This document shows, piece after piece, positions 4,369 to 63,725 of a stretch of DNA of 64,000 nucleotides. Within the stretch, counting starts at the first letter, position 1; the number at the start of each line of letters is the position of its first letter. Position numbers and translations under genes: made by a program. This DNA is from Rhynchopus sp. YZ270_cl-10 (taxonomy: Eukaryota; Euglenozoa; Diplonemea; Diplonemida; Diplonemidae), in the NCBI GenBank assembly GCA_964035575.1, contig OZ037876.1, positions 496,001 through 560,000 of the forward strand, given 5' to 3'. The notes under the pieces were generated by a model, which did no database searches, was not told the DNA's origin, and saw nothing but the letters and a program-made list of their open reading frames with translations.

Positions 4369-6573
4369 CTAAGGACGGAGCTTTCCGGAGGCATATGCAA
4401 GCAGCTTTCTCTTCGGACCTGCAAAAGAAAAACAAAATTATTACGCATCCACTCGACGTTTGGATAAAGAAAACTAGAGATAAAAGGGGGGTTTGGGGGG
4501 AGTTCAATTCTTGAATGCATCCCCACTCAGTCACACAGAATGTTTATTTTACGTTTCAAAAATATTGCTGCGAAAACTATTTTCAATTTTATGGGGAAAA
4601 CATACCAATCGGAAGATAGCTCAGTGATGCATCTGTTGCGGCGTGTAGGTCTTCAATGAGGTAGACGCCGTGCTGGTTCAGGACGTCGTAGTGCTTCTCC
4701 ATACCACGGATGATGAGCCACTGGTGCAGGTTCCCGCCTTCCACACCACCACCCCCTCTTGGCGAGACCGGGGTCACTGCGTGCTGGTAGGGCACGTCCA
4801 CCCGTGCAGGCGACTGTGGAGGTGATGCAGCGACGTAGCCATCTGGCCCTTCCAAGGATACCCCACGCGCATAGTCCAGTTGTGTATGCGCAACCGGTGC
4901 CTTGGCCATGACACGGTGTCCCGGGTCGTGTGCAGTTGCCGTGAGACGTACTAAAACATCCTTCTCCTGTGGTGTCATCTCCCGCACTACCTTTGCCTGC
5001 CGATGGAACTCCCCCTCTGGTTGGACCGACACACCGCCCAGCCTCGGCGAAGGTGGCGGCAGTGGTGGCAACCCCGGGCCTGACACTGCCGACAGTGGTG
5101 GAGACGATCTCACAGCAGCCGACCCGACAATGGGTACCGACACGCCTGCTGGGGCTCGGATGTGTGGAGGGGTGTGCGCGATGTGGTCGAACTGTGCTGA
5201 GATGGACCCATCGGGGGAGCGGCTTGCGGAGCGCACGGTGTCGCTGATATGAGAGGACACTGCCTCGTCACGTCTCTGCATCGGAGTGCGTGGCGAGCGA
5301 GGGGTCGCACCACCGCGCCTTGCAGCAGGCGACCTTGGGGACCGTGGCGACAGTGGCTGCTGCTGCATGGACCCCTTCGGCGAACGGTTTGCCTGAGGTG
5401 ACCTCCCTGTGGTAGACCGCGACCACGTGCCCCCGACGTGCAGCGCACCGCCCGAAGTATTCGTTTTCAATGATTTCGGCGGATCAACAACGACCTGCTC
5501 TGGAGATAATGACCGCGTCCGTTGCGGCGACCGCGAAACAGATCCGAGAAGTGGCGACTGCATTGGCGACACCGAACGTTGTCCCGAGGAGTGTGCATAG
5601 CTCTCAGGCGACTGCATGGAGATGGTCACTGCACGGTGTGCAGGGGACGCAGCGACCTGAGGGTTGCGAAGAGACCTGCTTCGGGTGTGCAGGAGCTGTT
5701 CCAACGCGGCAGCCTCAGCAGCACCCTTCGCCTTTGCGTTGTGGAAGTCGGACATCGAGATGCACCACTCCCTCAGGATGAGGCCACACCGCGGTACATC
5801 CACACCTAGCGGCACAATCGCAAGCATCTGCACCAAGGGCAGAATGTGTGTACGCACACCAGGCGGAACAGCACTACGCTCCACAGCACGTACCCGCATA
5901 TGAAACTCTTGCGTATCACTCAGCAGGCGCAGCCCAGGGCGAAGATAGCTCCGCTCTCCAGTACGCTTCACACGCACCGGGGACACAGCAAGCAGGACAC
6001 ACACCGTCTCCATCAGAGACTCCAGGATCCGGTACACCGTGGTGCCGTATTCATAGCGTCCTGTGGTGTGGCGTTATGTTGCAAGCAGTTGTAGGGGTTT
6101 CCTGAGCGGAACACTACCCAGCATGCTATGTGGAGGGTGAGACATACCTTCGACAAACTCCACACAGTCCTGTGGCGTCATTTCCAGAAGGTCTCGTGAC
6201 GCTGTGATCATCGCGTCAGCGCTGTGGTGAATGTTTGAAGATTTTTTTGTAGGATAACTCCAGTGTGAACCATCGCATATTGGTATATGACCACAAGGGG
6301 TTTGCTTCGGTATATATTTTTTTTGGCAATGTATCTCGTGTCAAATTGTAGGGGGGGGATAGAAACTTAACACTCACACTCACAAAATCGCACGATAAAA
6401 CCCATGGAAGAGGTTGTGGTGAAACACACACACACAAAAATCATTGAGAGAACGATGACAAGGCCTCTCGCTGTCCACATCCCCATTCTTAAAGACAATG
6501 TCACATTCTTTTTGCGGTCGTTTCCATACATTTGCTGCCCGTTCAACATGGCTTCATGAGCGAAAGCGTCCAT
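4369..6573 (-). CDS. SAM-domain protein with Ser/Pro/Arg-rich middle, four exons
   Basis: Exons on the minus strand: 6573-6530 (tentative), 6221-6148, 6060-4606 and 4418-4369, joined in phase to give 540 residues. The last exon restores the final helix of a C-terminal SAM domain (LHQWLIIRGMEKHYDVLNQ through EDLHAATDASLSYLPIG to PKRKLLAYASGKL), which is the best support for that junction. The N-terminal 130 residues are helical and not recognised. The middle (about 170-380) is Ser/Pro/Arg-rich with many SP and SPR motifs, a likely phosphorylated linker. Donors are GTATGG, GTATGT and GTATGT. If the first exon is wrong, translation would start at 6211. The 308-nt first intron contains an E-family repeat. 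SAM domains usually mediate oligomerisation; a scaffold role is inference. Confidence 0.72.
6359..6433 (+). repeat. E-family dispersed repeat, copy 1
   Basis: Shares with 48903-48969 the blocks AGAAAC.TAACACTCA, CCCATGG and GAGGTTGTGGTGAAAC in the same order and direction. It lies in the first intron of the SAM-domain gene. Confidence 0.75.
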
Positions 6574-7234
6574 ATTAAGGTCGGCACAGTGTTCCCATAC
6601 TACAGGTGGTGAGATGATGTTGTTTTAGGGGGTGGTGGATGGGGGTCGGAGGGGCTTTAAATATCAAAAAGAAAATATTTCCCCCCCCTTTTTTTTTTTC
6701 TAACTGTTACTGTACGCGCAGCAGCGTGTGTTGTGGGGGTTCAAAAGGGAAGGCTCGTTTTTCGTTTTGAAAAAAAAAAAAGAAAAGAAAAAAGAGACAG
6801 CAATCTTCTTTTTATTACTATCGTTGTGCCCCACACCCACCCGCCACCCAAGCGCTATACGTGAGATGTCGCCCTTCCCGTTCGCCCCCCCTTCGTTTTC
6901 TTTTAAGTGGTGGTGGGGAGAACTCTTCTGTTCTTGGTGAAAACAAGGTGTTCATTTTTGCCTTCTTTTTTTTGTCCTAAAAGACCTTTGCTATGTTATA
7001 GAAAAATGACAGCATCGAAAAGGATGTTCCTGTCGTCACACCTTGAAAAATTTTTTTGCCTTTTTTTTTGCATTTTGATAACAGCTTTGTTAGTTTTTTT
7101 CGTTCACACACGTCACCACCACTGTCGCCCTGTTTTTTTATGTTTTGTCCCCCCCAAAAAAAAATCGTTTTTTGCATCATTCTGCAATTTTCTGACAAGA
7201 AGCTGTTGTCAGTTTTTGAAGAACAAAAATGTGC
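6574..7234. other. Intergenic spacer, nothing recognised
   Basis: T-rich and A-rich runs dominate. It should hold the NAA50 3' UTR and the SAM gene acceptor region. No gene or repeat family is recognised. Confidence 0.55.
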
Positions 7235-7985
7235 TCACTTTTTGGTTGTGTCAAGGGTAAGCAGGTACGCGTCTTCGCCGAGCGTCTTGTAGTAACCCTG
7301 CACGGTTTCCTTGTTTGTGAAGCCGAATTTTTTGTAGAAGTCCAGCACTGCCTGGTTTTTTAATTGCACGTGGAGTGCGAGCGACTTCACGTCGGGATGT
7401 TTTTTTGCCTGTAGTGGTTTTTTTTTTTTTTTTTGGTTGCAATAGATTGACCCTCACTGGAAAAGTTGACATACGTCCTCAATAATAGTCTTAAGCAAGC
7501 ACGTTGCAATCCCTGACTGCCTGTACGGCTCCAACACCCCCAAGGTCATAATATATAAACGGTTGTCTTCTTTCTCCTCCAACCGACAGCAGATGGCGCC
7601 CACCAGCGTCTCCATGTTGTAGTGTGCCAGCCACGACCAGTCTCTGCCTTGCTGGTACAGCGAGTCGTAGAACTTCGGCTGGTAGATCACCGGGAAGGTG
7701 GCCTCGTTAAGTACCTTGATCATTTCAATACGCTTGGCGTCCATACGCAGAAGCGATATCAATTCGGGCTTGCTGACTTCAACCTCCTGCAGGTTTCAAG
7801 AAGGAAATTGAAGCGAATAGTGGGGGAAAAATGAAAGCTGTTAAGTCCAAACGCCTCTGTGGAGGCAGGCGGAAGGGGGGAAAAAAAAATGGAAATAACT
7901 GATAACGATGGTGGCCTTCAGCCACATTAGGGGTGTGTAAAAGTATTGTACATACATCAGCCAAGATATCATCATGGTCGGTCAT
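7235..7985 (-). CDS. NAA50: N-alpha-acetyltransferase 50 (NatE catalytic subunit), three exons
   Basis: Exons 7985-7956, 7786-7475 and 7408-7235 join in phase to 171 residues, the usual length of the family (about 170). The sequence follows NAA50 throughout: an early NEATFPVIYQPKFYDSLY, then VGAICCRLEEKEDNRLYIMT, the acetyl-CoA loop in LGVLEPYRQSGIATCLLK, then LHVQLKNQAVLDFYKKFGF and a Tyr-containing ETVQGYYKTL near the end. This GNAT enzyme acetylates the N-terminal Met of nascent chains at the ribosome, and in animals it is also needed for sister-chromatid cohesion. Introns are 169 and 66 nt with GTATGT donors. The first contains a C-family hairpin repeat. Confidence 0.95.
7831..7875 (+). 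repeat. C-family repeat, copy 1 (in NAA50 intron)
   Basis: Carries the family core AAACGCCTC and a perfect hairpin GCCTC-TGTG-GAGGC. It lies in intron 1 of NAA50. Confidence 0.6.
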
Positions 7986-8775
7986 CTTTTCCTTGAAAAA
8001 GCTCTCACACACGAGCTTTTTATGTATTCTTTTCCTAGAGTGGGTTGGATGGGGGTTGTTTGGGGGAAGAGTTTGGAAGGGGGGAAGAGAAAAAAAAATC
8101 AATTTTTTCAATAAATTTCCCAAAGCAAAGCAGGGTACGAAGCAAAAAAAAAAAAAAAATACACTACGGAAGTAGCACATCGCGTTTTGCTATAGGGTGC
8201 AAAAAAGAGGGGAAAGGAGGTGATGGTACGGTAAATTGATAACAGAAAGGGAACAATATTTGGAAGATCTTGACCCAGAGGAGCACAATCATCGTTGTGA
8301 AATAAATAGGCACTCTGGAAGGGCATATCCAGAGGGTGGGCAAAAATATTTTTTACACTCCGCATGAAACTGCCAATCACGGCATTTCGAAAAAAAGGGT
8401 GAAACGAAAAGGAAGGTTTTTTTCTTTCTAATTAAAGAAACAAAAGACAATCTGCACACAACATCCAAGAAGGAAATTGGAGGTGCAAATATTGCTTTAT
8501 TTTGAAATCAGTAATCAGGCGCGGTAAATAAAAACAAAAACAAAGTGCACAATTTCTAAGATGAATACACCTCTCCCATAGACACACATATTATCAAAAG
8601 AGAAGACATCAAATATATGAAATATTGTTGCACACAACACAACACAACACAACACCCACCTAAAACTCCTTTTTTTGCATTCCTTTTTTCTTCTTTTTTT
8701 TCCCTCTGTATAAACGGGTCCTTTCCCCATACGCGAACTGCCTTTCCTCGAGAAGGTCCGTTTCCTTGGTGCGGA
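7986..8775. other. Intergenic spacer
   Basis: AT-rich. It contains a short (AACAC)n run near 8635-8655 and several T runs. Open frames here are short and compositionally unlike the genes. Nothing else is recognised. Confidence 0.55.
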
Positions 8776-10784: not shown

Positions 10785-11076
10785 ACAAAAAAAATGGGTA
10801 TCTTTTTTTTTACTTCTCTCTCGCCTCTTTTGTGGCTGGTGTTCAAAAAAGATGAGGGTTATGGGTTCCTATGTTATGGTTCATGAGGGAAGGGTGTGAA
10901 ATGGGGTAGGGGTAGGGGGGGGGTTTTTTTTTTTATTGTAGGAGTGACGACTTTCACATAAAAAAAAAAGGGGGGGGAGAACTTTCTGTTTGGGGATTCT
11001 TTTTTTGCAGAAAAATACACCTACCAAAAATATGCTACTTCTAGTATAAGGCCTGTTTGTGGAGCTACTTTAACTT

Positions 11077-11120
11077 TGTCTTGAAATACAAAGTCCTCTC
11101 GTGTGACAGTACTGTACATC
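11077..11120 (+). repeat. B-family repeat, copy 1
   Basis: Family core TTGAAATACAAAG, then CCTCTCGTG and ACAGT, ending in a GTAC palindrome. Confidence 0.75.
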
Positions 11121-11264
11121 AACTTATAGTGAGTAAGCCTAGAAATATACGGTTGAGTTGAGCAGAGTTTGGCGGTGCAAAAAAGAAACAAAACCCAAAA
11201 ATAGAGAGAATGTTGAGATGATCTGAAGAAGCTGTTTTTGGACAGAGCACATTACCCTTTTTTT

Positions 11265-11299
11265 TGAAAACTTGGTTGTATTGGTGCAGACAGCTCCAT
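11265..11299 (+). repeat. D-family repeat, copy 1 (diverged)
   Basis: Begins GAAAACTTGGTTGTATT and ends in a shortened GCAGACAGCTCCA, compared with the family GTGTAGACACCC...CTCCAC. Confidence 0.55.
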
Positions 11300-12069
11300 T
11301 ATATTTTGTCATCGGGTTTGTTGAGCTCTGTTTATAGCTGGATGTGGTGCCCCTCCGGGTACTTTTACTATGTAACAGAACGACATCCTCAAAAAAAAAA
11401 AAAAATGCGTGGAGTTTAAACGAAAAAAAAGCGAGGTGTCTACACGTTATCAAAATATTCAAAAAAAAAAAAAAACAGATCTAGGAGGAGAGAGAAGAGA
11501 GAAAACGCCTGAAAAAAAAATTCGTTTATCGCTCTGCAATACGTAGTGTATCACTTCCCGCGCGAGGGGTTTTCACTAAATGGAGTGTTTTTCCCCGAGG
11601 GCTTCGGTCATAAACATTTTTCTTTCCTTACATCAAGGACACTCTCTTTTAAATTATTTTTTTTGGTTTTGGGTGAGATACAGCAGGAAGACCATCTTAC
11701 GGGTGTGTGCTCAAATAACGTCACCGGAAAAAGAATGAGGAGGAAGCAAGGTAAGGGGGAGGAGGCACATCACCGCCCTTACAAACGAGGGGGGGTGGTA
11801 TGTAACTAATCTAAGAAAAATACCTTTACCCTTTTTCCCTCATCCCCTACTCCTCACCCTTCTCAAAATTTTGAAATAATGCCTGCATAAAAGATGGGTA
11901 ATATTTTCGAGAGAAAAGTGCAAATCAATCAGCTCCCAAGAGAAAACAATTTCTTGCAAAGAAAGCTTCTTGGCGACGCACGCAATATGTATTAGGACCT
12001 CAGGGTTCACACAGACAGTCGTTTCTCCCACAAGAGAGGTTCTTGTGGAAAAAGAAAAAAAACAAAATT

Positions 12070-12104
12070 GACTTTGAAATGCAAAACCCTCTTGACAGTG
12101 TGCC
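12070..12104 (+). repeat. B-family repeat, copy 2 (diverged)
   Basis: GACTTTGAAATGCAAAACCC followed by TCTTGACAGTGTGCC, the B core with several substitutions. Confidence 0.55.
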
Positions 12105-12251
12105 TAAAAGAGGTTGCCCCCAAAAACGCTTGGACCCTTCAAAGTTGTAGCGTAATGTGTATGGGGGGGAAAGGTTTGGTAAGATGGAAGTCTCTGCAGT
12201 GCTAAATCACACCTTGAAAAAAAAAAAAGTTTTTTTTTTTTTTTGATAAAT

Positions 12252-14147
12252 TGTTCAGCCCCTCCGCTACGTTTTCAGATTTTTTTTGAGTTCTGTTGCG
12301 GGGTTTTTTTTCACCCTGCGCCAGTGTCTTATCCAGGGATTCAGATTTCAAAATAGGGGGGTCAGCTATTTTTGTGCCCAAAAATTTTTCAGCACTGCTG
12401 ACCAGGGATGTTGCTAAACCGCGTAGTGGAATTCCAAAATCCTTGAGAGGTCGTTTTTTTTACGGGAAATTTTACGCGGGAAAATCCTTTTTTTTTCCGG
12501 GAAATTTTGAGGAGTCTTTTTTTTTTTACGGGAAAATTCTGTAGGGTTGACCCGGGAGGCTGTACCTTCAATTTTTTTTTTTGCCTGCGGCGCCATTTTT
12601 CATTTTTTGCTCCGCAAAAAGGGTTCGTTGAGTGACTGCTCTGTGGTGTAAATAGCTATATTTTTACACCGTACCCTAATTTTTTTCGCCTGCGGCGCCA
12701 TTTTATATTATTTTTTTTTTGCTTCGCAAAAAAAAAATTCAGTTCCGTATGTTCCCGATGGTACTTGTCTTCTGAAGGAAAAGTACAAAGTGAACGTGGG
12801 GGCAGTTTGCGTAGTTGCAAACTTTGCTGCATGTTGTGACCCCACCATTTGACGGACGGAGCACGTCGAACCCAATAAGGAGTGAGAAAGAAGGATATGG
12901 CCAAAGAAAAAAGTAGCGTACCGTGCGCCTGCGGCGCAAGCTTGCATTACACCCTTCTTATGACATAGTTTGGCTGCGAAAAAAGTGCAATTTTAAGCGC
13001 AATTTTGAAATGTGGCGTACCGTGGCTTCGCCAGAACGCGGTTTTTTCGAAGTTTTCTTGGAAAATGGGGACACTCTCGCACGGGTTTTGTAGGCTGCAC
13101 CGGTAGTGCACTCCCCGTCTTTGGTTGCTGTTGAACAAGGATTCTCTCTCCTGACTACATCTACGCAAAGAGACGCCACCGCCTTTCTCACAGCACTATT
13201 GAGAAGCTGATGGTTCTTCATGAACAGGCACCGAGTTTAACAACGAAAAGATGGGGAATATTCTTGAACACGCTGTTGCCTTGTTTCTCAGCACAAGCGT
13301 AACAGGTTCAAGAGAAAACGGAGGTGTTCCTGCTGATGGCGGAGGAGTTGGAAGACTTCGCTCCCCGTATTTGCTTTCGGAATTGAGCTTCTGAGGACCT
13401 TTTTCGCGCGCAGCGCGAATTTTTTTTTTCTCCAAAACTGGTGCTTTCGGAAGTCGGTCAACGACCTGTCAATATCAGGGGGTGTGTGTATAGAGTCCCT
13501 GTGTCAGCGACCTGTCAGCGACCTGTCAATATCGACCCCTCCCGGAGCACCAAAAACGAAAGAAATTGGACGTGGGGTTCTCAAAATTTTCGGGGAAAAC
13601 GGCATATTTAGCGATAAGTGTGTTCGAAACGTATCATGTGGGCAAAAAAATTATGATTTTCACCACCAGACATGGGCCAGGGTCGAAAAATGTACCTTTT
13701 TCCCGTGTAAAAAAACCCGTAAAAAAACCCGAATTCCAAGCCCAAAAAGTGCGATTTTCGTAACTGTTTAGCGTCAGGTCTGCTGCTGACCAGGGACATT
13801 GGGAACATAGGGAACTGTATTTTTTTTTGCGAAGCAAAAAAAAAATCAAACAAATGGCGCCGCAGGCGAAAAAAAAATTTAGGGTACAGTGTAAAAATCT
13901 AGCTTTTTACAGCACAGAGTCACACATCGAATCATTTTTTGCGGAGCAAAAAAGGAAAAATGGCGCCGCAGGCAAAAAAAATTGAGGTACAGCCTGGATG
14001 GTGCGGTCAGCAACCCAGTTCCCCATGGTACTCTCGTGGTTCAACCATGGTTTTTTTTTTTTTTTTTTTTTTTTTTTGAAAATTTTCAGACTTCTGTTGC
14101 GCCGCAACAGAACTTTATACGGTAGCGGAGCCCCTGAAATTGTTGGA
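12252..14147. mobile_element. Decayed foldback (inverted-repeat) element
   Basis: Outer arms at 12252-12303 and 14096-14147 share CTCCGCTAC and GTTCTGTTGCGG in inverted order. Inner arms of about 205-210 bp at 12558-12770 and 13793-13997 are inverted copies at roughly 80-85 percent by eye, each holding two GCCTGCGGCGCCA / GC(T/C)TCGCAAAAA couples. The roughly 1-kb centre includes a segment (12903-13033) that recurs inverted at 60319-60438 and a repeated GACCTGTCAATAT motif. No transposase frame and no clear target duplication were found. Confidence 0.7.
12903..13033 (+). repeat. Dispersed TE fragment, copy 1
   Basis: Blocks AAAAAAGTAGCGTACCGTGC, GTACCGTGGCTTCGCCAG and TGACATAGT recur in inverted orientation and the same order at 60319-60438. 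Confidence 0.8.
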
Positions 14148-14148
14148 G

Positions 14149-14181
14149 TAGTGTAGTTGCCTCGGTTGTGTTGCCACAGTC
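14149..14181 (+). repeat. 33-bp exact repeat, copy 1
   Basis: Identical to 55424-55456 (begins TAGTGTAGTTGCCTCGG, ends TTGCCACAGTC). It lies beside the outer arm of the foldback. Confidence 0.85.
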
Positions 14182-14339
14182 GTGCAATCTCCACTGTTTT
14201 TTTTTAGGGTTTTTTTTTTTTTTACATTTTTTTTTATACCGGTATAATATCGCAATACGTTAGAAGAGGCCTTTTTCTCGCCTTTCTTCGGAGGGTGAGT
14301 GAGTGAAAATAACCCCTCCCATGCAATACCAAAGGAATA

Positions 14340-14403
14340 GTTATTAATGCAGGCACCTCCGACTGACCTACTGTACGATGCCAGTCATCCGGATGAAAGC
14401 ACA
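14340..14403 (+). repeat. G-family repeat, copy 1
   Basis: Shares TTATTAATGCAGGCA, CTGACC and GGATGAAAGCACAA with 18699-18755. The internal stem is GACTG/CAGTC here and GCTG/CAGC in the other copy. Confidence 0.75.
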
Positions 14404-14629
14404 AAAAAAAAAAAAAAGGAAAAGCTGAACATCCATTTACCCCCACCCCAAAATCACACCCCCACCCCTATACCCCCTCCCTTTTCTTTGAAAGAAAACG
14501 TTGCGCCCCCACCCACCCATTCGTGGAGCTCTGCAACATTGTATTGTGTTGCTGTGTCTCCCTCCCCACTCTCCCCCCCCCCCCCCCCAAAAAAAAAAAA
14601 ACAAAAAAACCCCATCACCCATCATAATT

Positions 14630-16634
14630 CTACCACACAGACACACCGTCTGTCTTGAGGGCGTTCTGAAGCATGTATGCTTCCGTGATCAGTGTCGACT
14701 TCTTTTCGAATCTGTGTTGGTTATTGTGTTTTTTTTACGAAACGCGATATAGGAAGGTGACGACTGCGTGTGGAGATCACACGAAAGAAAAAAAAAAGAA
14801 AAGTTTATAAGATGAACCCCAAGCCTCTCGTGCTTAGTCACCTTAAAAGGCGAGGTGACTGCACTTCAATTTACCAATTTATCAAAAAAAAAACATGAAA
14901 CCTTCGTTGTGTCATAGCTCCGCTCCCTTTGGGTACAATGGGTGGGGACTCATACCTGCTGACAACGATCTTTTTGCTGAGGGCGCAGATGAAGGTGTCG
15001 ACAATGGTGTCGAGCGAAGCCTTTCCTGTGGGGTCTCTGCGGAGAACACGGTCTGGTTCGGAGACCTTTTCCCTGAGGTCGATCCACTCCTGCGGTGGTG
15101 ATTGGGTTGTGGGGATGTGGGGCACGTGTGCAGCATACCTCCGACGAGCAGTCTGTGGAGACGTAGATGACGGTGTTCTTGTCCTCGGCAAGACGCTTGT
15201 TCATCTGCTCAATGATGTGCTCCCAGGACGGCAGGCACTGCTCCTCCTTGCTGGTGCTCAGCTCCTGCGCAGCGCCCTTGAGGACACGGTCGTAGCAGAG
15301 CGAGGGGCGGAAGCCGTGCTCTGAAAGAAAAGATGATTTTGATAAATTAGTGTTGTATTGCAGAGGGGGAAATATGATGCGCATAAAGAGGACATACTCG
15401 CTGTGGCGTTGCAGCTCTTGCTGCGGTAGAGGGAGGAGCGTGGGATTCTGAAGGCGATGGTGTCGCTTGCCTCGACACGCGCCTCTTCAAGCCACTTCTC
15501 CGCCATGACTGCGTACTTCCCCTTGAAGCGCAGACGCGAGCGTGCGCGCCAGAAGAGCGCTGTGCCGTACATCTCTTTGTCGGTGTAGCCACGGCAGAGG
15601 AGCTTGAATTCGTTGGTGGTGTGCTGCGGGAGGCAGTCCCTGCAGAAGAGCACCACCGGCGTCTCCACGTAGTTGTGCACGTACTCTGTGTGGCAGTCCT
15701 CGCACTCCTTGTACATCGTGGGGTACATGAAGCGCGTGATGTTCAGCCCCACAGCGCATGTTGCGTAGTTGTACAGAGTGCGCATCTGCTTGTCGATGTC
15801 TGTCGTCGGGAGGTACGTCGACCCAAGGTAGGTTCCGTACCTAAGGCTCTGTGTGCCCTGCCTGCCGTTCCACCCAGGGACGACGTATTGACCGTCTTGG
15901 GTTTTCTTAGGGAAGAAGATGGTCTTTGCGTGGAGGTCCGGGTCGTAGGGTGAGGAGACTGCGACGGCACCTTGGGTGTCGTTCTCGGAGACGGGGCGGA
16001 TGCTGTCACCGACCTTCATCTGGTTGGGCGCTTTGTCGTTCCACTTCTTCACGAGTTCGTCCATGTACTCCTCACCCATGGCCACTTCCTTCAGACCGAG
16101 GTCCTTGCGCAGGCCTGCAGTCTCGCGCGAGAGACGTTTCAGGTTGCTTAGAAGCAGGACTGCGCGCATCCCGCGAGGGTTCTGCTGGTGGTCTGTGAGA
16201 AGCTTTGTGCGTCGGTTCAGCTCGACAAATATCGCCCGCTCCGCTTCAATGAGCTTCTTCATCTCCGCATCGTCTGCCTCAAGCGTCTCACGCCTCCCCT
16301 TGCACTCAAGAAGTTCCTCCTTCTTGCTCGCAATGTCCTGCTCGATGCGCTCCTGCTTGCGCTCCAGCCCCCGTTTTTCCTCCCCCAGCTGCCCAACCCC
16401 GAGGTCCTTCTGTAAATGCAACATATCAGGTGAGCTCATTGACTCCTGGCATGCCTGCGTCTTCTTCACTGTTACAGAGAGCCGCTCTCTGATGTGGTCT
16501 TCGCGAGACCGCCACTCACTCTCCAGCTGGTTCCCCCCATATCTGTAAAACGCGGCGAAAATGACAACCAACGTAACACCTGAAACAGCCAGCACTGTAT
16601 TGCCCCGATCCGCTTGCCGGTGCGGGGGGGGCAT
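14630..16634 (-). CDS. O-fucosyltransferase-like glycosyltransferase, type II membrane protein, four exons
   Basis: Exons 16634-15398, 15320-15139, 15089-14956 and 14711-14630 join in phase to 544 residues. A short cytosolic N-terminus, one membrane anchor (about residues 13-33) and a coiled-coil stem (about 35-190) precede a catalytic region with VPGWNGRQGTQSLRYG, a Cys-rich YKECEDCHTEYVHNY stretch, DTIAFRIPRSSLYRSKSC and the C-terminal family pattern VIYVSTDCSSEEWIDLREK, then DTFICALSKKIVVSRFEKKS. This resembles the GT-B fold of GDP-fucose-dependent protein O-fucosyltransferases and their relatives; donor and acceptor are not proven. It likely acts in the ER or Golgi. Donors are GTATGT, GTATGC and GTATGA. 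The 244-nt last intron contains an A-family repeat and hides the final 27-codon exon. Confidence 0.75.
14803..14844 (+). repeat. A-family hairpin repeat, copy 1 (in intron)
   Basis: Outer arms AAGATGA and TCACCTT, loop CTCTCGT and 3' inner arm GCTTAG. It lies inside the last intron of the fucosyltransferase-like gene. Confidence 0.8.
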
Positions 16635-17381: not shown

Positions 17382-18604
17382 TCACGCCTGCGCTTCTGCA
17401 GCAGATGCCTTCTTAGCTTCATATTCTTCGGCCATTTGCCTTGCCTGAGCTGCAAAATCAGGAACAGGTGTGTTGAATGTGGTACCCTCCTTCTCGATCC
17501 TCGTGGGGTCCAGATTTGTTGTGTCGGTGCTTGTGCACAGCCCAACTGCTAAGGTGTCGGACAATGTACAGCCATCCATGTTTTTGTCATTTTTGTACTG
17601 TAATGTGTGTGTGTGTGTGAAAGTAGTGTGTAACGCATTGTTACTGCATAGTGCAGAGAGGGCACTGCCCCATTTCACTTTCTCCCCACATACCAAGCGC
17701 GCGTTGGGGATCTGCATTTGGTAGTGTCCCGGTCCGAACACCTCTGCAAAGGATTGGCTTCGTTCCTCGTCGATAGTGTGCCCGAGACGCAGTTTATCCT
17801 CGTTGGACATTTCTGCGAATTCCTGCAGCAAAAAAGGACGTGAAGAGGGGGGAAGCAATACTGGAAGAATTTCCCGCGGGCGAAAATAGGGAAGAAAAGT
17901 GGGGTGTATCTGCTCAAGTTACCTTCGCGTGAGGGGATCGTTATGTTTGATGACTCTTGATGTGTATTTGTGACATATGGGCCATACCTTCAAAAAGACT
18001 GCATGCGCCTCATCAGTGTGGTACGGCAGTGGTTCAATCAGCTTGTTGTCTAAAGTGTACATTTTACGCCCCCCCTCCACGACCTCACGCTGGTACCACT
18101 CCTTGAACGCCTTGTCGTAGTCGCGCTCGTCTTGACGTGTTGCGTACCTCTTACCAGAGTTGCCAGGTTTACGGTTCCACCATCTGAAAATTGGTGTTGA
18201 AAATGAACAAAAAAGTATAAAATATTTGGTAAAATTTAAGTTAGATAGACAAAAAGCCCAATGCAGTCCTACATCCATTTCGTGGTTTTACATCTGATAT
18301 GCCCTACTCCCCGCTTCCACTCATCTGTCAGATGAAAAGATCATTAGAGACGCAGGTTAAATCTAGGTGTCATCTGCCTTGCAGGGTAGGAGAGGCCATG
18401 GTTTTTCTGTACAGACATCTGGCAAAAAAAGGAGGGCGGGATGAGAGGGTTTGCGACATACGACCACGGCATTTTGGGTGCATCCTCTGGTATCGGGTCT
18501 CTAATACGCAGCCAGTCTTTTCTCTCCTCTGCTGTCGTTCGGTGCCAATGAAAGGGACCTGCTTGGATATTGAACCATGCTGCTGTTGTTGCTGTTCTTT
18601 TCAT
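17382..18604 (-). CDS. Small hydrophilic protein of unknown function, four exons
   Basis: Exons 18604-18462, 18183-17988, 17822-17694 and 17597-17382 join in phase to 227 residues. The product starts MKRTATTAAWFNIQAGPF, has a Trp/Arg-rich first third (HWHRTTAEERKDWLRIRDP, PWSWWNRKPGNSGKRY), a charged middle and an Ala/Glu-rich helical end. There is no membrane segment. The basic N-terminus and the WWNR-type composition recall small subunits of mitochondrial complexes in this group, but I do not recognise it. Donors are GTATGT, GTATGG and GTATGT. The 278-nt first intron contains adjoining J and K repeat segments. Confidence 0.75.
18258..18300 (+). repeat. J segment (3' half of the long B repeat), intronic
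   Basis: ATGCAGTCCTACATCCATTT plus CGTGGTTTTACATCTGATAT matches the 3' halves of the long B repeats at 44695-44803 and 53213-53322. Here the 5' half is missing and a K segment follows. Confidence 0.75.
18291..18352 (+). repeat. K-family hairpin repeat, copy 1 (in intron)
   Basis: Arms CATCTGA (18291-18297) and TCAGATG (18328-18334) enclose TATGCCCTAC. The copy at 46166-46228 has CGTCTGA/TCAGACG, a compensated change. Confidence 0.8.
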
Positions 18605-18698: not shown

Positions 18699-18755
18699 GT
18701 TATTAATGCAGGCAACTCCCGCTGACCCACGATGCCAGCTGGATGAAAGCACAAC
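18699..18755 (+). repeat. G-family repeat, copy 2
   Basis: TTATTAATGCAGGCA, then GCTG...CAGC arms and GGATGAAAGCACAA, matching 14340-14403 in the same direction. Confidence 0.75.
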
Positions 18756-19410: not shown

Positions 19411-19475
19411 AATTTCAACATATGCCATCAACAAATTGGTAGCATAGGTATAGGGATCAACAAAAATGTTCCCAA
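19411..19475 (+). repeat. H-family repeat, copy 1
   Basis: ATTTCAACATATGC, then AAATTG.TAGCATAGGTATA and AATGTTCCCA, shared with 34370-34425 in the same direction. Confidence 0.8.
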
Positions 19476-19952
19476 CTTTCTTTTTATGTGGTATGTTTTG
19501 CAAAAAGAACATAAAAAAAACACACGAAATGGCCCTGTTGACGACGCTGAATGAAGTCATGGGGAATAGGTAAACTTAAAGAACTGGATTTTTGAAATCA
19601 AACTTGGTGAACCCATTTTTTGAAGCACTTGTACAGAGGTTAATCTAGGTTGTCACCCAACACCTCCTTTCAACGTTTTTTTCCTCAAAAACTGGGTTTT
19701 ACCCTCTTTATCTGTAATTTGTCATTAAAACGGCGATGCTTTTTGATGGGGCGAGATTGGCACGGTACAACAACGAGACATTACACTCAAAACAGTAAAA
19801 TACATAAATATGGGTATCCTACCTGCACTACGTTCCCTATCAAAGAAGGCATCGAAAATAGAAAAAGAAAAGGGAAAAAAGAGCTGGTCAAAGATGACCT
19901 AAGTTGCTCACCATTCAGAACCGGGGGGGAAAAGCAAGAAAAAAAAAGAAAC

Positions 19953-19993
19953 GTTTGTAAGATGAACCTAAGACTCACAGTGCTAAGTCATCT
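19953..19993 (+). repeat. A-family hairpin repeat, copy 2
   Basis: GTTTGTAAGATGAACCTAAG with outer arms AGATGA and TCATCT. The outer stem is fully Watson-Crick here, unlike the more common AAGATGA/TCACCTT. Confidence 0.8.
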
Positions 19994-31994: not shown

Positions 31995-32002
31995 ATAAGA
32001 GG

Positions 32003-48079: not shown

Positions 48080-48120
48080 TGACTTGAAATACAACGCCTT
48101 CTTGACAGTTGTACCAAATA
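48080..48120 (+). repeat. B-family repeat, copy 5
   Basis: TGACTTGAAATACAACGCC, then TTCTTGACAGTTGTACCAAAT. Confidence 0.75.
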
Positions 48121-48214
48121 CAAAAGGGAATGCTCTGGAAACGTTTTCTTTAAATGATCACAAACCCTTGGGGTGAGGGATTGCACCCCCTATGGTGGTG
48201 AAGAAAAAAAACTT

Positions 48215-48253
48215 GGTTAATATGAACCTAAGCCTCACGTAATTGATCACCTT
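48215..48253 (+). repeat. A-family repeat, copy 7
   Basis: GGTTAATATGAACCTAAGCC, then TCACGTAATTGATCACCTT. The inner stem is degraded and the outer 3' arm is kept. Confidence 0.7.
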
Positions 48254-48423
48254 ACCCACCCTTGAGGAAAAGGTAAAACCAGAAAAAATATGGATTTTGT
48301 AAAAAAACACCAAACTTCGAAGGGGGCTGTATGCTGTATCGATGTGGGCTGAAATATGATTTAGGTATTCTTTGATGGAGTTTTCCATCAGCGCTCCTTT
48401 TTTTTTTGTTGCATTATTTTTTT

Positions 48424-48470
48424 TGAAAACTTGGTTGTTTTTAGTGTAGACACCCGAAGATGAACTCCAC
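48424..48470 (+). repeat. D-family repeat, copy 4
   Basis: TGAAAACTTGGTTGTTTTT, then AGTGTAGACACCCGAAG and ATGAACTCCAC. On the coding strand the arms CATC and GGTG enclose a UUCG loop. Confidence 0.85.
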
Positions 48471-48902
48471 GGTATATTTTTCTTTAGAGGGCAATGAGGT
48501 GGTCTAGTGGGGTTGGGGGAGAAAAAAAAAAGAGAGAAAAGTTTATTTAGGCGGTGTCCTTTGTGTTGGTTTTTTGTATCCCTTCATTTTTGCCCTCAAA
48601 AAACAAACGCTGGAATGGCTTCTGAGAAAGAAGGCCTACTTCTTCCAGCGGAATAAGGTGCAATACTGCGAGAGACAATAAAAAAAATCACCGGACTGAC
48701 CTAAGAAAATGTAAGTAAAAAACAACAACAACAACAAGAAAGCTTTTTTGAGTCTGCTGAACCACGTAGGTGTAATCCAAGCTACCCCTTTGCTTTAAGT
48801 CGTCCAACTGATATCTTGAGAAACACAACCAGGAAAGAGAGAAAAGAAAAAGAATAGCTGTCTTTGTCGTTGAAACACAGCCAAAAAAAATAGTGAGGGA
48901 AA

Positions 48903-48969
48903 TAGAAACATAACACTCATCACACGAAAAAACCCCATGGGAGAGAGGTTGTGGTGAAACGCACACACC
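48903..48969 (+). repeat. E-family repeat, copy 2
   Basis: TAGAAACATAACACTCATCA, then CCCCATGGGAGAGAGG and TTGTGGTGAAACGCACACAC. Confidence 0.75.
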
Positions 48970-49740
48970 TCGACCTGTTTTGGTGAGGCATGGCTCTGCA
49001 GCGCGGTTTATCCCTAGAACCGCAAAAGTGTGTTCAAAATGTTTTGCTTCTATTTCCTCCTTCATTTCATGAGGCGACATATAAAAAAAAAACACAAAAA
49101 AGCTAGTATAGCGCAGGAAGAGGAAAGCTACGCTTATTTTTTTTTTTTCTTTCATTTTTTTTTTTTATTCAAAAGTACAGAAAACCGTTGTAACATAAAA
49201 CAAAACAAAGCCGTTAGCCAGGCTTTGGTACGACACTGGAACCCTTTACCCTTTTCCCTTTGAACAGAATTTGTGTATTCTGCACGTTCAGTGAATGCGT
49301 TCTGGGAAAGGCTCCAGGGCTACGTTGAAAAAAACAAAAAACTAAAAAACAAAAAAAAGGCTTATTAAAAGGGTGTATATGACCCTCGTACACACATACA
49401 TCTTTTAAAGAAACCGTAAAGAGCTCACTTCTTTAACCTTTGCCTTCAAAATAGAGTATGCAGGCACAACTCTTTAAAGTAAAACAAAGGAAATTACACT
49501 CAAGAGAGCTGAACTATAAAAATATAAAAGCAAAATGCAGTGAAGGCAAGGGATGTTAGGCAAGGTGTATAGTCGTAGTGTACGTTCAAAAAAAAAATTG
49601 GGGAAATACAAAAAAAGGCTTGAAAAAGTGAATATGCCTCTCACACACATTTTATCAATACATTCTTTATTTTGGGACAGAAGGTTGCACAGATACTGTA
49701 CATTAAGCAGAGAAAGGAAAAAGGGGGGGGAAAGAGAATA

Positions 49741-49781
49741 GTTTGTAAGATGAACTTAAGTCTCTTGTGCTCAGTCACCTT
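49741..49781 (+). repeat. A-family repeat, copy 8
   Basis: GTTTGTAAGATGAACTTAAG, then TCTCTTGTGCTCAGTCACCTT. Confidence 0.8.
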
Positions 49782-50331
49782 GAAAAAAATGGGGAGTAGG
49801 GGAAGGAAAAGATTTGGCTTACACGAGGCACGCCACATCCCTTGAAGACAGAAGCACACAGGGCAATGCACGCGACCATGAATAGAGGAGAAAAAAAGCT
49901 GGTATCAATGTCAATTCGAAATCAGCTTTTGTCATTCCTCTTTGAGGGTCGCAGTGCTTCGAAGCCCTTCCATACTACAAAGCTTAACAGTTTTTTTTTT
50001 TCTCTAAATGCACACATCCTTTATTTTCCAAAATCAAGAAATATTTTGAAGTAAAAACAAAAATCTGATGACATGAACTGCACTAAGAGGTGAATCTACG
50101 CATCGATTTTTTTAAATTCAAAGCTTCAAGTAATGAACGAAGGATCGATGCAAAGAGAAAAAAAAACAAACAAACAAAACAAAAGCCATAAAAAAAAACT
50201 GACAAGAAAGATATTGCTTACAGGGGGAGTGAAAAAAAAAATGCGTCAAAGACGACTTAACCGGGCACACATCTTACAAAAGGGGTTTATGGTTTTGCAA
50301 AACGAAAAAAAAAAAAAAATGATAAAATATT

Positions 50332-50366
50332 GGAAAGATGAAAAAGCCTCTCATGCTTAGTCATTT
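50332..50366 (+). repeat. A-family repeat, copy 9 (diverged)
   Basis: GGAAAGATGAAAAAGCCTC, then TCATGCTTAGTCATTT. The loop region and 3' inner arm are kept. Confidence 0.7.
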
Positions 50367-50431: not shown

Positions 50432-50513
50432 GTGAAATGAAAAAACGCCTCTGGGACACAAGCACTGATGCTTCCGTGGGCTATCAAGCCCCGAAGTGCA
50501 CTGTACGGAGTTT
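50432..50513 (+). repeat. C-family repeat, copy 6 (long form)
   Basis: GTGAAATGAAAAAACGCCTC leads to GCACTGATGCTTCCGT and the hairpin GGGCT-ATCA-AGCCC (50478-50491). Confidence 0.8.
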
Positions 50514-51731: not shown

Positions 51732-53694
51732 TCAGCGCCTCGAACCATCTTCCGCAGGACCGCTGTAGGAGGCAGGGTTCGGGTTGGTATGGTACTTGCC
51801 GGTTCTGGTGAAGTGAGATTGGAAGAAGCCATCGACAGAGCGGAACTGCCCTGCGTAGTTTTTGGCGTGTTGCTGCCAGGGGGCTTGCGTGGCCTTGGGG
51901 AGGAAGGCACGCTCGGATTTATCCTGTGGCGCACGGTGGCTGTAGCTGAAGTCAGGTCTCTGGTAGGTATGCTCCTCGAAGTCGTACCAGTGGTCGATTT
52001 CACTTTTCTTCGCGGTTCTCATTGACCCGTCGGGTTGTCTCACAATGAAACGCCTCCTCTTTGGGTTCTCCGGTCGAAGGTCGTGTGTCCAATGTTTGTG
52101 TCCAACGTTGTTGCTCATTTCCGCAAAAACCCAGTTTGTGTCGGTTTTGGTGCTCTTAGTGTAGGCCTCGCTGAGCCAGCTTCTGTCGTCGTCTATTTGA
52201 TACACCGGCTGCAGGTGTTTGGACATATCCTGGAGGTCCGGGTATGCGTCGTTGAAGTATTCGTAGTTGTCGCCCCAGAAGTCCTTTCTGTCCTCCTCCG
52301 TCTCGAGGAAGCGGTACGGATCGTCCACCTCGTTGATGTGGGTGTACGATGCCTCGCGCCTCTTCAGGTACTCTTTGAACAACGCCTTGTCGCCCATGAA
52401 GGAGGTACGCGGTTTCTGCATGCCCTGGGGGATCATCGCACCGAGGGAACGGTTCATTTCGAGGTTTTCGTGCATGAAGAGACGGTTGCGGAGGTTTCTG
52501 TCTGGCTCAATGCCTTGTTCGTATGCTGCCAGCTCTGCTTGCCGGCAGATGGTTTCCTTGCAGTCCTGAAGCGTGAGACCGTACATTCGCGCAAGACGCT
52601 CTGGTGGCCAGCGTTCAGGGGATCTTGAGTAGAGCTGGTAGATTTCTGGGCCACATTTCTGTGCAACCATCTTGTCGGCAAGGATGCGGTCCTGCAGCTC
52701 CTCCTTCGCAAGGTAGGCAAGCTTGGGCGGCAGGTCGCGGAAGGGGTCCATGAGGTCACGCACATTGGAGGCCTCCTTGCTGAAGCGGGCAAGGCGGTTC
52801 ATAACAGCAATCTCTTTGAAAATGGCCTCGCGCTCGCCCTCCTCACGGATGCGGTCAATCAGCCCCTGTGGGTCCTCACGGTACCAGTACAGCATGTGCA
52901 GGTAGTAGTCGTCCTTGCTGAAGTCTGCACCCTTCGCAACGTCCCCAATGGTAACGTTCAGCACCTTGTCAAGAAGTCTGTCCTTGATTGTCGCCTGCTC
53001 GTCCGCGTCGAGCAGTTTGCTTCCTGTGGTGTTGGGGGTGAGAGGGGAGGGGGGGAGAGGGTGGTCATACCTTTCCACGTCAACCGCAGCATGTCAACGA
53101 TGTCCTTGTCATCGGAGGAGAGGGATGGGTGGTTGGGTTGCAGGACACGGTCGTCGTAGCGGGGTTGGCTGTGTGGTGTGAGGTTTTACTTTAATTCCAG
53201 CATTCAAAAAAAGTTGGTTTGTAATACAAAGCCCTCTTGTGACAGTGTGCCTTGGTACAGACCGGTTGTACGAGGTGGACACCCAACCATGCAGTCCTAC
53301 ATCTATTTCGTGGTTTACATCTGAAAAAAAGGTCAATAACATACGACGCATATTCGTGGGATTTGTGTACCCATCGTGCGTAGGAATTCATCCAGTAAGG
53401 CTTCACGCTGACAAGCTTGCGCAGCTGCCCCGCGTCGACGGGGAAGAGAAGCTCCCACAGGTCGTCGCTCTCGCCCGCACGCCATTCCTCATTCTGCAAG
53501 CGCCAGAGACGCGTGTCGTACTTGCTGCGCTCCACCTCCGCGTCCCCAGGAATACCAAACTCGTCCGTGCTCCTCCGCTCGTGCGGGATGAAGTTCCCGT
53601 ATGGCTCCCGCCCACCACGTGCCCCAGGCGACGCTACAGTCTGGCACCATCTTCTCGATACAGTGCTCAGACGTGTCGCATTGTTGACACTCAT
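51732..53694 (-). CDS. Putative mitochondrial protein (mitoribosome-associated type), three exons
   Basis: Exons 53694-53345, 53168-53071 and 53023-51732 join in phase to 579 residues. The N-terminus (MSVNNATRLSTVSRRWCQTV) is basic and amphipathic, as in a mitochondrial presequence. The segment YSRSPERWPPERLARMYGLT, with LQDCKETICRQAELAAYEQG after it, has the helix-turn-helix pattern seen in several mitochondrial ribosome and ribosome-assembly proteins (the mS35/Bot1-like group). The rest is charged and Trp/Tyr-rich with no membrane helix. A mitoribosomal subunit is my best guess. Introns are 176 and 47 nt (donors GTATGT, GTATGA); the first contains a complete long B repeat. Confidence 0.75.
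53213..53322 (+). repeat. Long B repeat, copy 6 (in intron)
   Basis: TTGGTTTGTAATACAAAGCC, CTCTTGTGACAGTGTGCC, TTGGTAC, then the J segment ATGCAGTCCTACATCTATTT. It lies in the first intron of the putative mitochondrial protein gene, aligned with 44695-44803. Confidence 0.85.
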
Positions 53695-54855
53695 TGCCAC
53701 AAATGGCAAAAAAAAAAACGGTCTTCTGATAGAATGAATGATTTGGGGAGGATGAGGATGAAGAGGATTAAAAGGATGGTGCAAAATGTAATCTTTTTGT
53801 TTACTGTGCTTAGAACTTTGTTTTTTTTTAGTACCCCCCCTAATTGTTTTTTTTTTTTGTGTGTGTGGGAGGGGAATGGGGTTATACAAGAGAAAAAAAA
53901 AGAAAAACGGATGAAAAAAAAAAAAATAAAAAACTGAAATTGAAAGTGTTGCAATCCCCAATTCCCGCCCCCTTTGTGTCAGTGGTTGTTTTTTGATTTG
54001 GTTTGTTTCATTGTGTCCCCTCAAGTCAACGCACTCTATATACTGCGATGATCGGTGGTGTGGTTTATTTTGCGTGTGGCAAAAAAAAGGGGGAGAGAAA
54101 CAGGAGAAAGGTGGAATATTCAATATGATTGAAAAGAGGAAAAAGATGAAAAAAGACGAACGGGGGGGGGTCACTTGACGGGACAACACATTTTTAAAAA
54201 AATATTTTTAAAAAGATGGGAATGTGCCTTGTTGCACGCTTCGCTTCAAAAAAATAATAATAATAAACTCATCCACAATACACGCAACATCACGCAAAGA
54301 GAAAATAACTGTTTTCATTGAAATCACACGAAACAGATGTTTTCTTCTTCGGGTCGCATGTCCACACACCTCCCCTTTGTCCTAGTGTCAGTGCTTCTTT
54401 TGTAAACCCTTTTTTTTTACCCAATTTTTCTCAATATTTTGCGGTGAAATAATCGCCCGTATCGTAAAAAAAAAATGAAGGAAAGATGGTAGATGAGTGT
54501 ACCCTACGTGCATACACACCTAATCAAATAAACGGGGGGGGAAGTGGATAAGTAGGTGTCGTTACAAATTATTCCCTCTTTTTCATCTTTTGTCAATAAT
54601 CACTCAAGATCCCATGGGTTCGGGCGACGTGCTTTCAACAGCACCCGATTGAATTTCTGAAAACGGAATTCAAAAAAAAATCCAGTAATACGGCTCCGGA
54701 TGCCAGAAAATAATGAGGAAAAAAAACTTGAAAGATGAATGAGTGAGGACACTAATTACACACATCTAAATACAGAGGAAGAACCAAGGTGCAAAAAAAA
54801 ACCCTTTCTCTCCGCGGAACCAACCCCAAATTGGCACCATAAAAACAAAAGAAAA

Positions 54856-54896
54856 GTTTGTAAGATGATCCTAAGCCTCTCGTGCTTAGTCACCTT
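54856..54896 (+). repeat. A-family hairpin repeat, copy 10 (best-preserved)
   Basis: Outer arms AAGATGA (54862-54868) and TCACCTT (54890-54896), inner arms CTAAGC (54871-54876) and GCTTAG (54884-54889), loop CTCTCGT. Confidence 0.9.
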
Positions 54897-55415: not shown

Positions 55416-55423
55416 CCCCCCTT

Positions 55424-55456
55424 TAGTGTAGTTGCCTCGGTTGTGTTGCCACAGTC
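55424..55456 (+). repeat. 33-bp exact repeat, copy 2
   Basis: Identical to 14149-14181, which flanks the outer arm of the foldback at 12-14 kb. Confidence 0.85.
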
Positions 55457-55590
55457 CAAAAAGTTCACTCACTTTTTTGAAATATTTAGAGTAGTGTTAG
55501 CCACGGTATCAAAAAAAAATACCGACTTTTCTTTTTAAACACCCTCATGGCAACACCCTGCGTTATGTTGTTGTTTGTTGGATATTATTT

Positions 55591-58920: not shown

Positions 58921-58933
58921 TTTTTTGTTTTTT

Positions 58934-58979
58934 GTGAAATTTTGGTTTTAGTGTAGACACCCCCCTGAGGAGCTCCACC
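58934..58979 (+). repeat. D-family repeat, copy 5
   Basis: GTGAAATTTTGGTTTTAGTG, then TAGACACCCCCCTGAGGAG and CTCCACCA. Confidence 0.8.
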
Positions 58980-63340: not shown

Positions 63341-63374
63341 CTGCAAGATGAATGTGCCTCTCGTGCACGCATCT
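63341..63374 (+). repeat. A-family hairpin repeat, copy 11 (re-paired stem)
   Basis: Outer arms AGATG (63346-63350) and CATCT (63370-63374), inner arms GTGC (63354-63357) and GCAC (63365-63368), loop CTCTCGT identical to copy 10 although both inner arms differ. Confidence 0.85.
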
Positions 63375-63562
63375 ATGTATAAAGAAACCTCGTTTTTTTT
63401 TTCTTTTGATTTTTTGCGAAGAGTCGGGAAGAAAAGGAAAAGAAAAAACAAAAATACGTCAAAAAAAAAAAGCACGAACAGTCTCGCGCAGGGCGTTTTA
63501 TTCTTATTCTGTGGAAACAGAATGGATGAAAGGCCGGGCAAAAAGAAATAAAGAAAAATAAG

Positions 63563-63605
63563 TGAAAGATGAACCTAAGTTCCATGTATTTCGTCACCTC
63601 ACCTG
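63563..63605 (+). repeat. A-family repeat, copy 12 (diverged)
   Basis: GTGAAAGATGAACCTAAG at the 5' end and CGTCACCTCACC at the 3' end; the inner stem is lost. Confidence 0.65.
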
Positions 63606-63683
63606 ATCGCAAAGAAAAGAGATAAGACGATCTCGGGGCACGTTCTGCACAAATTCTCATCTAGGGGTCTGCATAAGAAACAA

Positions 63684-63725
63684 GGTTGGTAAGATAAACC
63701 TATGGCCTCTATATGCTGTCAGCTT
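63684..63725 (+). repeat. A-family repeat, copy 13 (diverged)
   Basis: GGTTGGTAAGATAAACCTAT, then GGCCTCTATATGCTGTCAGCTT. Confidence 0.6.

Follow-up and report, generated by a model that had tools for sequence, protein, structure and literature searches.

Many of the short dispersed repeats in a 64,000-nucleotide stretch of the genome of the diplonemid Rhynchopus sp. YZ270_cl-10 (hereafter the window: bases 496001-560000 of the 1.45-Mb contig C44, OZ037876.1) are 3′ tails of long interspersed nuclear elements (LINEs), together with their probable partners, and they lie nearly always parallel to the genes. Such near-complete gene-parallel orientation of repeats is unusual. The repeat family designated here as A is the 59-nt 3′ untranslated region (UTR) of an apurinic/apyrimidinic endonuclease (APE)-type LINE, LINE-A, whose tails show near-absolute sense orientation; we consider it probable that their insertion is primed on the transcription template strand, with transcription itself as the directional cue. 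Diplonemids possess one-way gene clusters and trans-spliced mRNAs (PMC10161547).

The reasons why retrotransposons prefer one orientation with respect to genes are usually hard to separate from selection. With LINE-A, its tails and its probable partners facing almost perfectly one way on chromosomes with very long one-way gene arrays, and other LINEs of the same genome not, this genome can serve as its own control in asking whether transcription or replication chooses the strand used in target-primed reverse transcription. For annotators, the results are a caution that LINE tails can underlie many motifs of 35-60 bp in such genomes, and one-way tails provide a sequence marker of transcription direction.

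Repeat orientation in the window and across the genome

The genome searched comprises 152 Mb in 126 contigs. Local scans covered 264 contiguous kb, consisting of the window and the next 200 kb of the same contig, and repeats were detected with profile hidden Markov models (HMMs) at a reporting threshold of E<=0.1. Families are lettered independently of the initial annotation of the window, and minus denotes the direction of most copies in the window. Families A, B, C, E, F, G and K form a T-flanked class, and D, Dq and X4 an A-flanked class. On the reversed 264-kb sequence, used as a control, ten models returned no match and the K model returned one; the K model is palindromic, so its sites also match on the opposite strand.

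Self-comparison of the 264 kb yielded 656 distant repeat pairs on the same strand versus 103 on opposite strands, and clustering recovered a superfamily of 111 loci, 108 facing one way and 3 the other (the two of these three that are listed belong to family D). Two unrelated repeat groups obtained by clustering in the same 264 kb are mixed (8:7 and 10:3) and thus provide an internal control for the one-way families. By strand, HMM matches divide 74:0 for A, 21:0 for B, 4:0 for C, 8:0 for E, 24:0 for F, 34:0 for G, 10:0 for X4, 12:1 for Dq and 18:6 for D. Family K has 9 one-way sites; nine of its ten opposite-strand matches are the same palindromic sites, and the single weak contrary match, at 118153 (E=0.024), is not a palindromic repeat reading. 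Altogether, 168 distinct T-flanked sites at E<=0.1 face one way in the 264 kb, where 55 of 59 long open reading frames (ORFs) lie on the minus strand. The window itself holds 37 distinct T-flanked sites, all facing one way (five of them weak, E 0.01-0.1), and nine A-flanked copies (D, Dq, X4), of which eight face the same way and one, a D copy at 1728-1781, is inverted. The initial annotation had described every oriented repeat between 6359 and 63725 as facing one way, and the HMMs bear this out, the sole inverted copy falling outside that range.

None of 189 match midpoints (E<1e-3, some matches overlapping) falls in a predicted coding segment, such segments making up 42.6% of bases, so the repeats do not interrupt coding sequence between splice sites as introns or introners would. 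Two copies, F at 53210-53321 and G at 7835-7870, sit within apparent introns. Element density is 1.0-1.5 per kb in spacers of at least 1 kb and 0.4-0.8 in shorter ones, rising with spacer length between 0.44 per kb (shortest class) and 1.5 (longest class), and the elements are neither tied to single genes nor present once per gene.

Across the genome, an exact 35-base pattern of family A occurs 661 times (0 in the backward control), 316 times forward and 345 times reverse: strand is balanced overall, yet the copies are arranged in long same-strand runs. Orientation was compared with local gene direction for the first 100 of the 661 A places, 39 F places (excluding the window's own copy), 79 C places (excluding overlaps and the window's own copies), the 40 best K copies and 131 kinase rows, some of which are pieces of one gene. 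Where both flanking markers agree, orientation is concordant in 66 of 67 testable A places, in all 20 testable K copies, in all 11 testable F places and in all 48 testable kinase rows; the one discordant A place, on contig C6, has an inverted C neighbour. Kinase rows with a listed element of the A, C or F sample within 100 kb are invariably oriented as in the window (32/32), the tally within 200 kb being 56 versus 2, and five of five DEAD rows agree with element orientation. The polarity is therefore real and withstands the refuting condition named by the initial annotation, equal frequency of both orientations relative to genes, in the testable rows, which follow the genes and flip with them on other contigs. 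For D, the first 100 of 3262 places gave 56 sense and 8 antisense copies under a strict rule (64 testable) and 69 and 16 under a looser one (85 testable), a sense share of 81-88%. The one-way rule fails for D beyond the window and for some C copies genome-wide.

On contigs C3, C5, C10, C13, C23 and others, the left arm carries + elements and the right arm - elements, the genes pointing the opposite way in each. The pattern looks like one central divergent zone per chromosome; contig C2 instead has three blocks.

LINE-A and the other repeat families

The assignment of family A rests on 19 fetched copies of the 27 rows that make up the LINE-A group, with L089 as reference; in all 19, A follows the stop codon of the LINE ORF. 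Rows of this group score near 91 bits, have ORFs of up to 1462 aa and are never antisense to the genes. The 1462-aa ORF of L089 contains an endonuclease domain (PF03372, residues 98-299) and a reverse-transcriptase domain (PF00078, 682-891); its best solved relative is LINE-1 ORF2p, and the reverse transcriptase has many named relatives in Diplonema papillatum, mostly 44-48% identical. As far as sequence alone can tell, LINE-A retains intact-looking ORFs and near-identical copies. Immediately before the LINE-A ORF, positions 1-471 of L089 hold an open frame with a cysteine-rich end, which is probably ORF1 of the element.

When the L089 LINE was compared by blastn with the 264 kb, all 28 matches were sense, ended within 24 nt of its 3′ end and started 33-76 nt from that end; the reach was at most 63 nt in 27 of the 28 and 46-51 nt in 21. 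The usual truncation point is the 5′ base of a hairpin in the 3′ UTR (~48 nt; -16.5 kcal/mol, z -3.5 against shuffles), and longer young copies extend back into the LINE ORF. Copies are embedded in T-rich tracts. Target-site duplication scores for 16 young copies averaged 6.44 versus 4.41 for re-paired flanks, with 0 of 2000 shuffles as high; two of the 16 score 0. Family A and its LINE thus combine an ORF with endonuclease and reverse transcriptase, a constant 3′ end, 5′ truncation at varying points, and target-site duplications, as do APE-type non-long-terminal-repeat (non-LTR) elements, and the dispersed copies are products of target-primed retroposition with extreme 5′ truncation. Because the cut lies at the 5′ and not at the 3′ base of the stem, the RNA rather than the enzyme appears to end there. 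An RNA cleaved at the hairpin base would be ~48-60 nt long and begin AAGGUGAC.

LINE-A differs in polarity from other LINEs of this genome. In 150 reverse-transcriptase rows from a genome-wide search, LINE-A accounts for 17 sense and 0 antisense rows (assignable among 27) versus 38 sense and 26 antisense for the remainder (assignable among 123; Fisher p 0.0008). Under a stricter rule the counts are 10:0 and 14:11 (p 0.015).

Family D is the 3′ tail of a second LINE, group 88, as observed in one copy examined (L112) of the eight rows in that group, where D begins 16 nt after the stop codon and is followed by a poly(A) run. The initial annotation had presented the repeats as a set of elements without a described counterpart, a description that must be abandoned for A, the 3′ UTR of an APE-type LINE, and for D, the tail of another (one copy). 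It had also noted a core shared by two of the families under its own lettering and taken it as a hint of common origin. The shared CCTCTCGTG core of A maps to the loop region of the LINE-A 3′-UTR hairpin, and a loop resembling CACGAGAGG is common to A, B and F; B and F may have it because one enzyme recognises all three, or by common descent. Single-copy folds of G give z -1.9 against shuffles. The 3′ end of F is retained in 23 of 24 matches in the 264 kb and its 5′ end is variable, with 9 matches of 41-46 nt and 8 of 107-111 nt. K forms the 3′ portion of a larger repeat, which is also found in tandem arrays (period near 1.69 kb; L069, L070) and shows no long ORF on either strand in those stretches; the 39 best other K copies are 98-100% identical to the query, several being tandem neighbours. 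The 11 compared copies of C delimit a unit of ~200 bp whose edge, following a T-run, is sharp; its RNA direction is not proven. Common T-rich flanks, U-rich ends and polarity make it most likely that the LINE-A enzyme or a sister of it also copied families F, G, E, C, K and B, either as non-autonomous RNAs or as the tails of relatives not seen here, and the shared loop points further to a common enzyme for A, B and F.

Origin of the one-way orientation

What has to be explained is the identity of A, its fixed 3′ and truncated 5′ ends, its short duplications and T-rich flanks, and its near-absolute sense orientation. In the account that we regard as probable, the U-rich end of the RNA (..AACUUUUCUUU) would pair with an A-run of the strand that serves as template in transcription, and priming of reverse transcription would be confined almost entirely to that strand. 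Transcription would supply the direction: a polymerase crossing an A-run would form a weak rU:dA hybrid and pause, so that the LINE endonuclease and the U-rich tail could reach the template A-run. Opening of the weak hybrid is proposed for the T-flanked class; LINE-D, poly(A)-tailed and A-flanked, has the same preference in a less strict form. In all families the element RNA strand is the gene sense strand, and the first strand extends the transcription template. A more sweeping version, in which LINE priming takes place genome-wide essentially only on the template strand of the elongating polymerase, with the U-rich end replacing the nascent U-run and a ~48-nt hairpin tail as the typical event, is advanced tentatively, and we hold it to be rather doubtful.

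The supply of targets does not explain the polarity, since T-runs outnumber A-runs on the sense strand away from elements only 1.3-fold (1132:856) and AG follows the T-run at a frequency of 0.17 at insertions versus 0.19 at other sense and 0.17 at other antisense T-runs. The absence of AG enrichment also bears on the idea that orientation stems from the target DNA, the enzyme recognising an extended motif aligned with the genes, for example a splice acceptor (pyrimidine tract plus AG). That idea accords with the pyrimidine-rich flanks and with pyrimidine-rich 15-mers being about twice as common in sense (811:424); a twofold excess is too small to yield 74:0, the elements are not found one per gene, and we give this explanation little credence. 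Priming coupled to replication, with cDNA begun at nascent 3′ ends of forks, has more in its favour and is unlikely rather than implausible. Forks moving outward with transcription from a central chromosome zone would leave copies parallel to genes, and the + left and - right arms of many contigs are the layout expected from a single such zone; Tn7 and IS200/IS605 are known to insert with a polarity directed by forks, and LINE-1 ORF2p binds PCNA (PMC5371812). This mechanism requires one-way forks along whole arms, however, and the three gene-following blocks of contig C2 would need more than one start.

Two further explanations invoke selection after insertion. If antisense copies were lost after random insertion, for instance because antisense RNA pairs with thousands of sense copies, the location of copies in transcribed arrays and the high copy number of A (661 exact 35-mers) would allow such pairing to be widespread. 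Polarity is nevertheless as strict in LINE-A rows (17:0) and in the 40 best, near-identical K copies (98-100% identical, 20:0) as in old copies, and antisense survivors are found in D (8 of 64 or 16 of 85, by rule) and in other LINE rows (26 of 64). This genome thus tolerates antisense LINE DNA, an argument against wholesale removal that makes this explanation improbable. That the copies are functional RNA elements, such as processing or stability hairpins, held in sense by selection appears very improbable. The LINE-A hairpin folds well, the consensus of six E copies beats 200 of 200 shuffles, alone among five families in sense, and SIDER tails affect mRNA levels in Leishmania (PMC11520807). 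Yet 38 distinct A copies show no covariation in the stem (90.0% of cells paired versus 90.1% shuffled; score 0.128 versus 0.125, with 160 of 500 shuffles as high) and hence none of the compensatory changes of a structured RNA, RNAalifold gave no sense consensus for A or G, and Rfam returned no match above gathering scores in the window. Scans by E-value over 13 kb of the window and 10 loci gave sub-threshold Rfam matches only, the K consensus beats 193 of 200 shuffles but is stronger in antisense, and a substitution table for selection on RNA structure was ambiguous. Lying outside coding sequence, with a density that follows spacer length and with no covariation, individual A copies look neutral. 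Among the three possibilities offered by the initial annotation, insertion coupled to transcription fits best; removal of antisense copies is weakened by the antisense D and other LINE copies and retains some probability; and function in RNA is unsupported, the A hairpin lacking covariation and the elements not being tied to single genes.

Several candidate identities were also set aside. T-tracts and AAC-like ends had raised the possibility of trans-splice acceptors or branch-point modules, which were dropped on the AG frequencies and on the elements not occurring one per gene. Introns or recursive splice sites were dropped because the AG|GT at the A edge is the hairpin stem base, and small RNA genes on the Rfam result in the window. 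Antisense poly(A) retroposons, suggested by the T-run before C, were dropped for A because the LINE ORF reads sense, and selection on RNA structure was dropped for want of covariation in A.

A number of points count against the account based on the transcription template strand. Of 24 testable C places, 20 are concordant; the four exceptions lie on contigs C1 (two adjacent copies), C6 and C22 (one copy each). The elements themselves contributed to the assignment of local gene direction, and the 20 K rows include tandem neighbours and so represent fewer independent events. Orientation is almost as uniform in the A-flanked Dq (12:1) and X4 (10:0) as in A, which means that the rule extends beyond T-tracts. 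Single copies of F and E show no folding advantage over shuffled sequences (z +0.6 and -0.5). A check of the 2.4 kb behind each of 12 reverse-transcriptase loci, every one from a different group, revealed no tail of F, G, E, C or K; several of these stretches stopped at or before the ORF end, an incomplete search that leaves the enzyme behind these families unproven. Human LINE-1 shows the reverse situation, transcription-coupled repair acting against sense insertions (PMC5717806), and the choice of transcription over replication as the coupled process is an inference.

Relation to known elements and copies in the window

The SIDER1 and SIDER2 repeats (short interspersed degenerate retroposons) of Leishmania, relatives of the L1Tc/ingi clade, are likewise degenerate retroposons in one-way clusters with a sense excess. 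SIDERs are about 550 bp long. They are thus far longer than the hairpin-length 3′ ends described here, and their polarity is partial as compared with 74:0 for A: sense copies prevail ~4-fold overall, with an antisense excess of ~3-fold between polyadenylation and splice sites (PMC2689281, in part), and SIDERs in 3′ UTRs are 82% sense (PMC11520807, in part). Stringent-type LINEs and their partner short interspersed nuclear elements (SINEs) appear similar in having a 3′-UTR hairpin near the RNA end, with a loop common here to A, B and F. To our knowledge, the definition of these LINEs does not include a strict orientation relative to host transcription. According to PMC4176376, the LINE protein recognises the 3′ tail. 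In human LINE-1, orientation relative to transcription is likewise set at insertion, with the opposite sign: sense insertions are depleted by transcription-coupled repair, whereas here sense is nearly exclusive (PMC5717806, in part).

Within diplonemids, D. papillatum has one-way clusters and many non-LTR elements with related reverse transcriptases, and the portions of its genome account available to us describe neither element orientation nor hairpin-length tails (PMC10161547). Noncanonical introns of hemistasiid diplonemids are also short inverted-repeat elements in the same protist group (PMC12621601, in part); they interrupt genes, whereas here 0 of 189 matches are coding and unit A is the 3′ UTR of a LINE. 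A search of titles and the beginnings of abstracts, limited to open-licence PMC articles, returned SIDERs and human L1 and no equally one-way LINE in polycistronic genomes, which is weak evidence of absence. Sense-biased degenerate retroposons in one-way arrays and LINEs that recognise a 3′ stem-loop are known already; as far as the literature search shows, the new features are the near-absolute polarity across contigs in one LINE lineage beside non-polar LINEs, and the hairpin-length copies.

Copies in the window are listed below by family, with strand and HMM E-value.

54848..54895, minus, A copy, truncated LINE-A 3′ UTR, among the best in the window (E=2e-17; 97.9% to the L089 LINE 3′ end)
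14795..14843, minus, A copy (E=7e-15; 93.9% to the LINE-A 3′ end)
19945..19993, minus, A copy (E=4e-12)
26462..26505, minus, A copy in a 515-bp spacer (E=1e-07)
34949..34993, minus, A copy (E=4e-12)
42454..42501, minus, A copy (E=4e-08)
43313..43336, minus, A fragment, weak (E=0.03)
44241..44286, minus, A copy (E=5e-11)
48205..48252, minus, A copy (E=8e-08)
49733..49780, minus, A copy (E=7e-13)
50326..50363, minus, A copy (E=6e-07)
63564..63599, minus, A copy (E=7e-05)
63680..63702, minus, A fragment, weak (E=0.06)
32445..32472, minus, B copy, weak (E=0.09)
42407..42429, minus, B copy (E=6e-05)
49629..49642, minus, B fragment, weak (E=0.07)
63345..63371, minus, B copy (E=1e-08)
6354..6433, minus, C copy (E=1e-18)
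48897..49059, minus, C copy, long, within the ~200-bp unit, sharp edge after T-run (models C/C2, E=6e-22/1e-33; edges against 10 genome copies)
14340..14405, minus, E copy (E=4e-18)
18699..18754, minus, E copy (E=5e-15)
11073..11117, minus, F copy, short form (E=8e-07)
12065..12106, minus, F copy, short form (E=3e-06)
18258..18292, minus, F fragment without 3′ part (E=4e-06, model 76-109)
32000..32068, minus, F copy (E=3e-12)
44586..44640, minus, F copy (E=9e-06)
44691..44793, minus, F copy, long (E=2e-28)
48080..48115, minus, F copy, short form (E=1e-04)
53210..53321, minus, F copy, long, in apparent intron (E=2e-28; exon reading)
7835..7870, minus, G copy, in apparent intron (E=4e-06; exon reading)
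32621..32640, minus, G fragment (E=6e-04)
42978..43019, minus, G copy (E=1e-11)
43688..43737, minus, G copy, longer variant (E=6e-08)
46255..46282, minus, G fragment (E=2e-04)
50443..50467, minus, G copy (E=3e-05)
19413..19506, minus, K copy, 3′ part of longer repeat (longer form in L069-L070; E=2e-25)
34372..34428, minus, K copy, truncated (E=1e-11)
1728..1781, plus, D copy, sole inverted copy in the window (E=2e-10; span from clustering)
11263..11309, minus, D copy, A-flanked, LINE group 88 tail (E=4e-07; end approximate)
35099..35146, minus, D copy (E=2e-14; end approximate)
42028..42081, minus, D copy (E=4e-11; end approximate)
48422..48470, minus, D copy (E=6e-15; end approximate)
58935..58978, minus, D copy (E=1e-08; end approximate)
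14137..14196, minus, Dq copy, A-flanked (E=1e-21)
55424..55478, minus, Dq copy (E=3e-11; end approximate)
31705..31793, minus, X4 copy, A-flanked (E=3e-24)

Among the genes of the window, the protein encoded at 51735-53093 has seven database matches at 76-87% identity, one of them with the record prefix Hpha, which we take to be Hemistasia phaeocysticola.

Other repeats were noted in passing. A GC-rich repeat with GCGCGCTTCGCGCGC cores occurs in six copies of one orientation along the contig (64026, 102480, 137919, 177240, 230089 and 259498, in window coordinates extended). Two longer inverted repeats are transposon-like, pairing 12557-12769 with 13788-13995 (85% identity) and 12897-13034 with 60319-60444 (81% identity). 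An identical 165-bp direct repeat lies at 55591-55755 and 56122-56286, and a tandem array of ~40-bp units with CGCGAGCGWAGCGAGCGG cores at 60706-61094 has an inverted relative ~150 kb away. A tandem TATGGTAC repeat occupies 1241-1360, in DNA that is GTAC-rich from about 1000 to 1720. Elsewhere in the genome, a reverse-transcriptase group scoring ~117 bits, with an ORF near 1860 aa, is found near contig ends (C44:10323 and 32707; C67:12322 and 35720) and is possibly subtelomeric.

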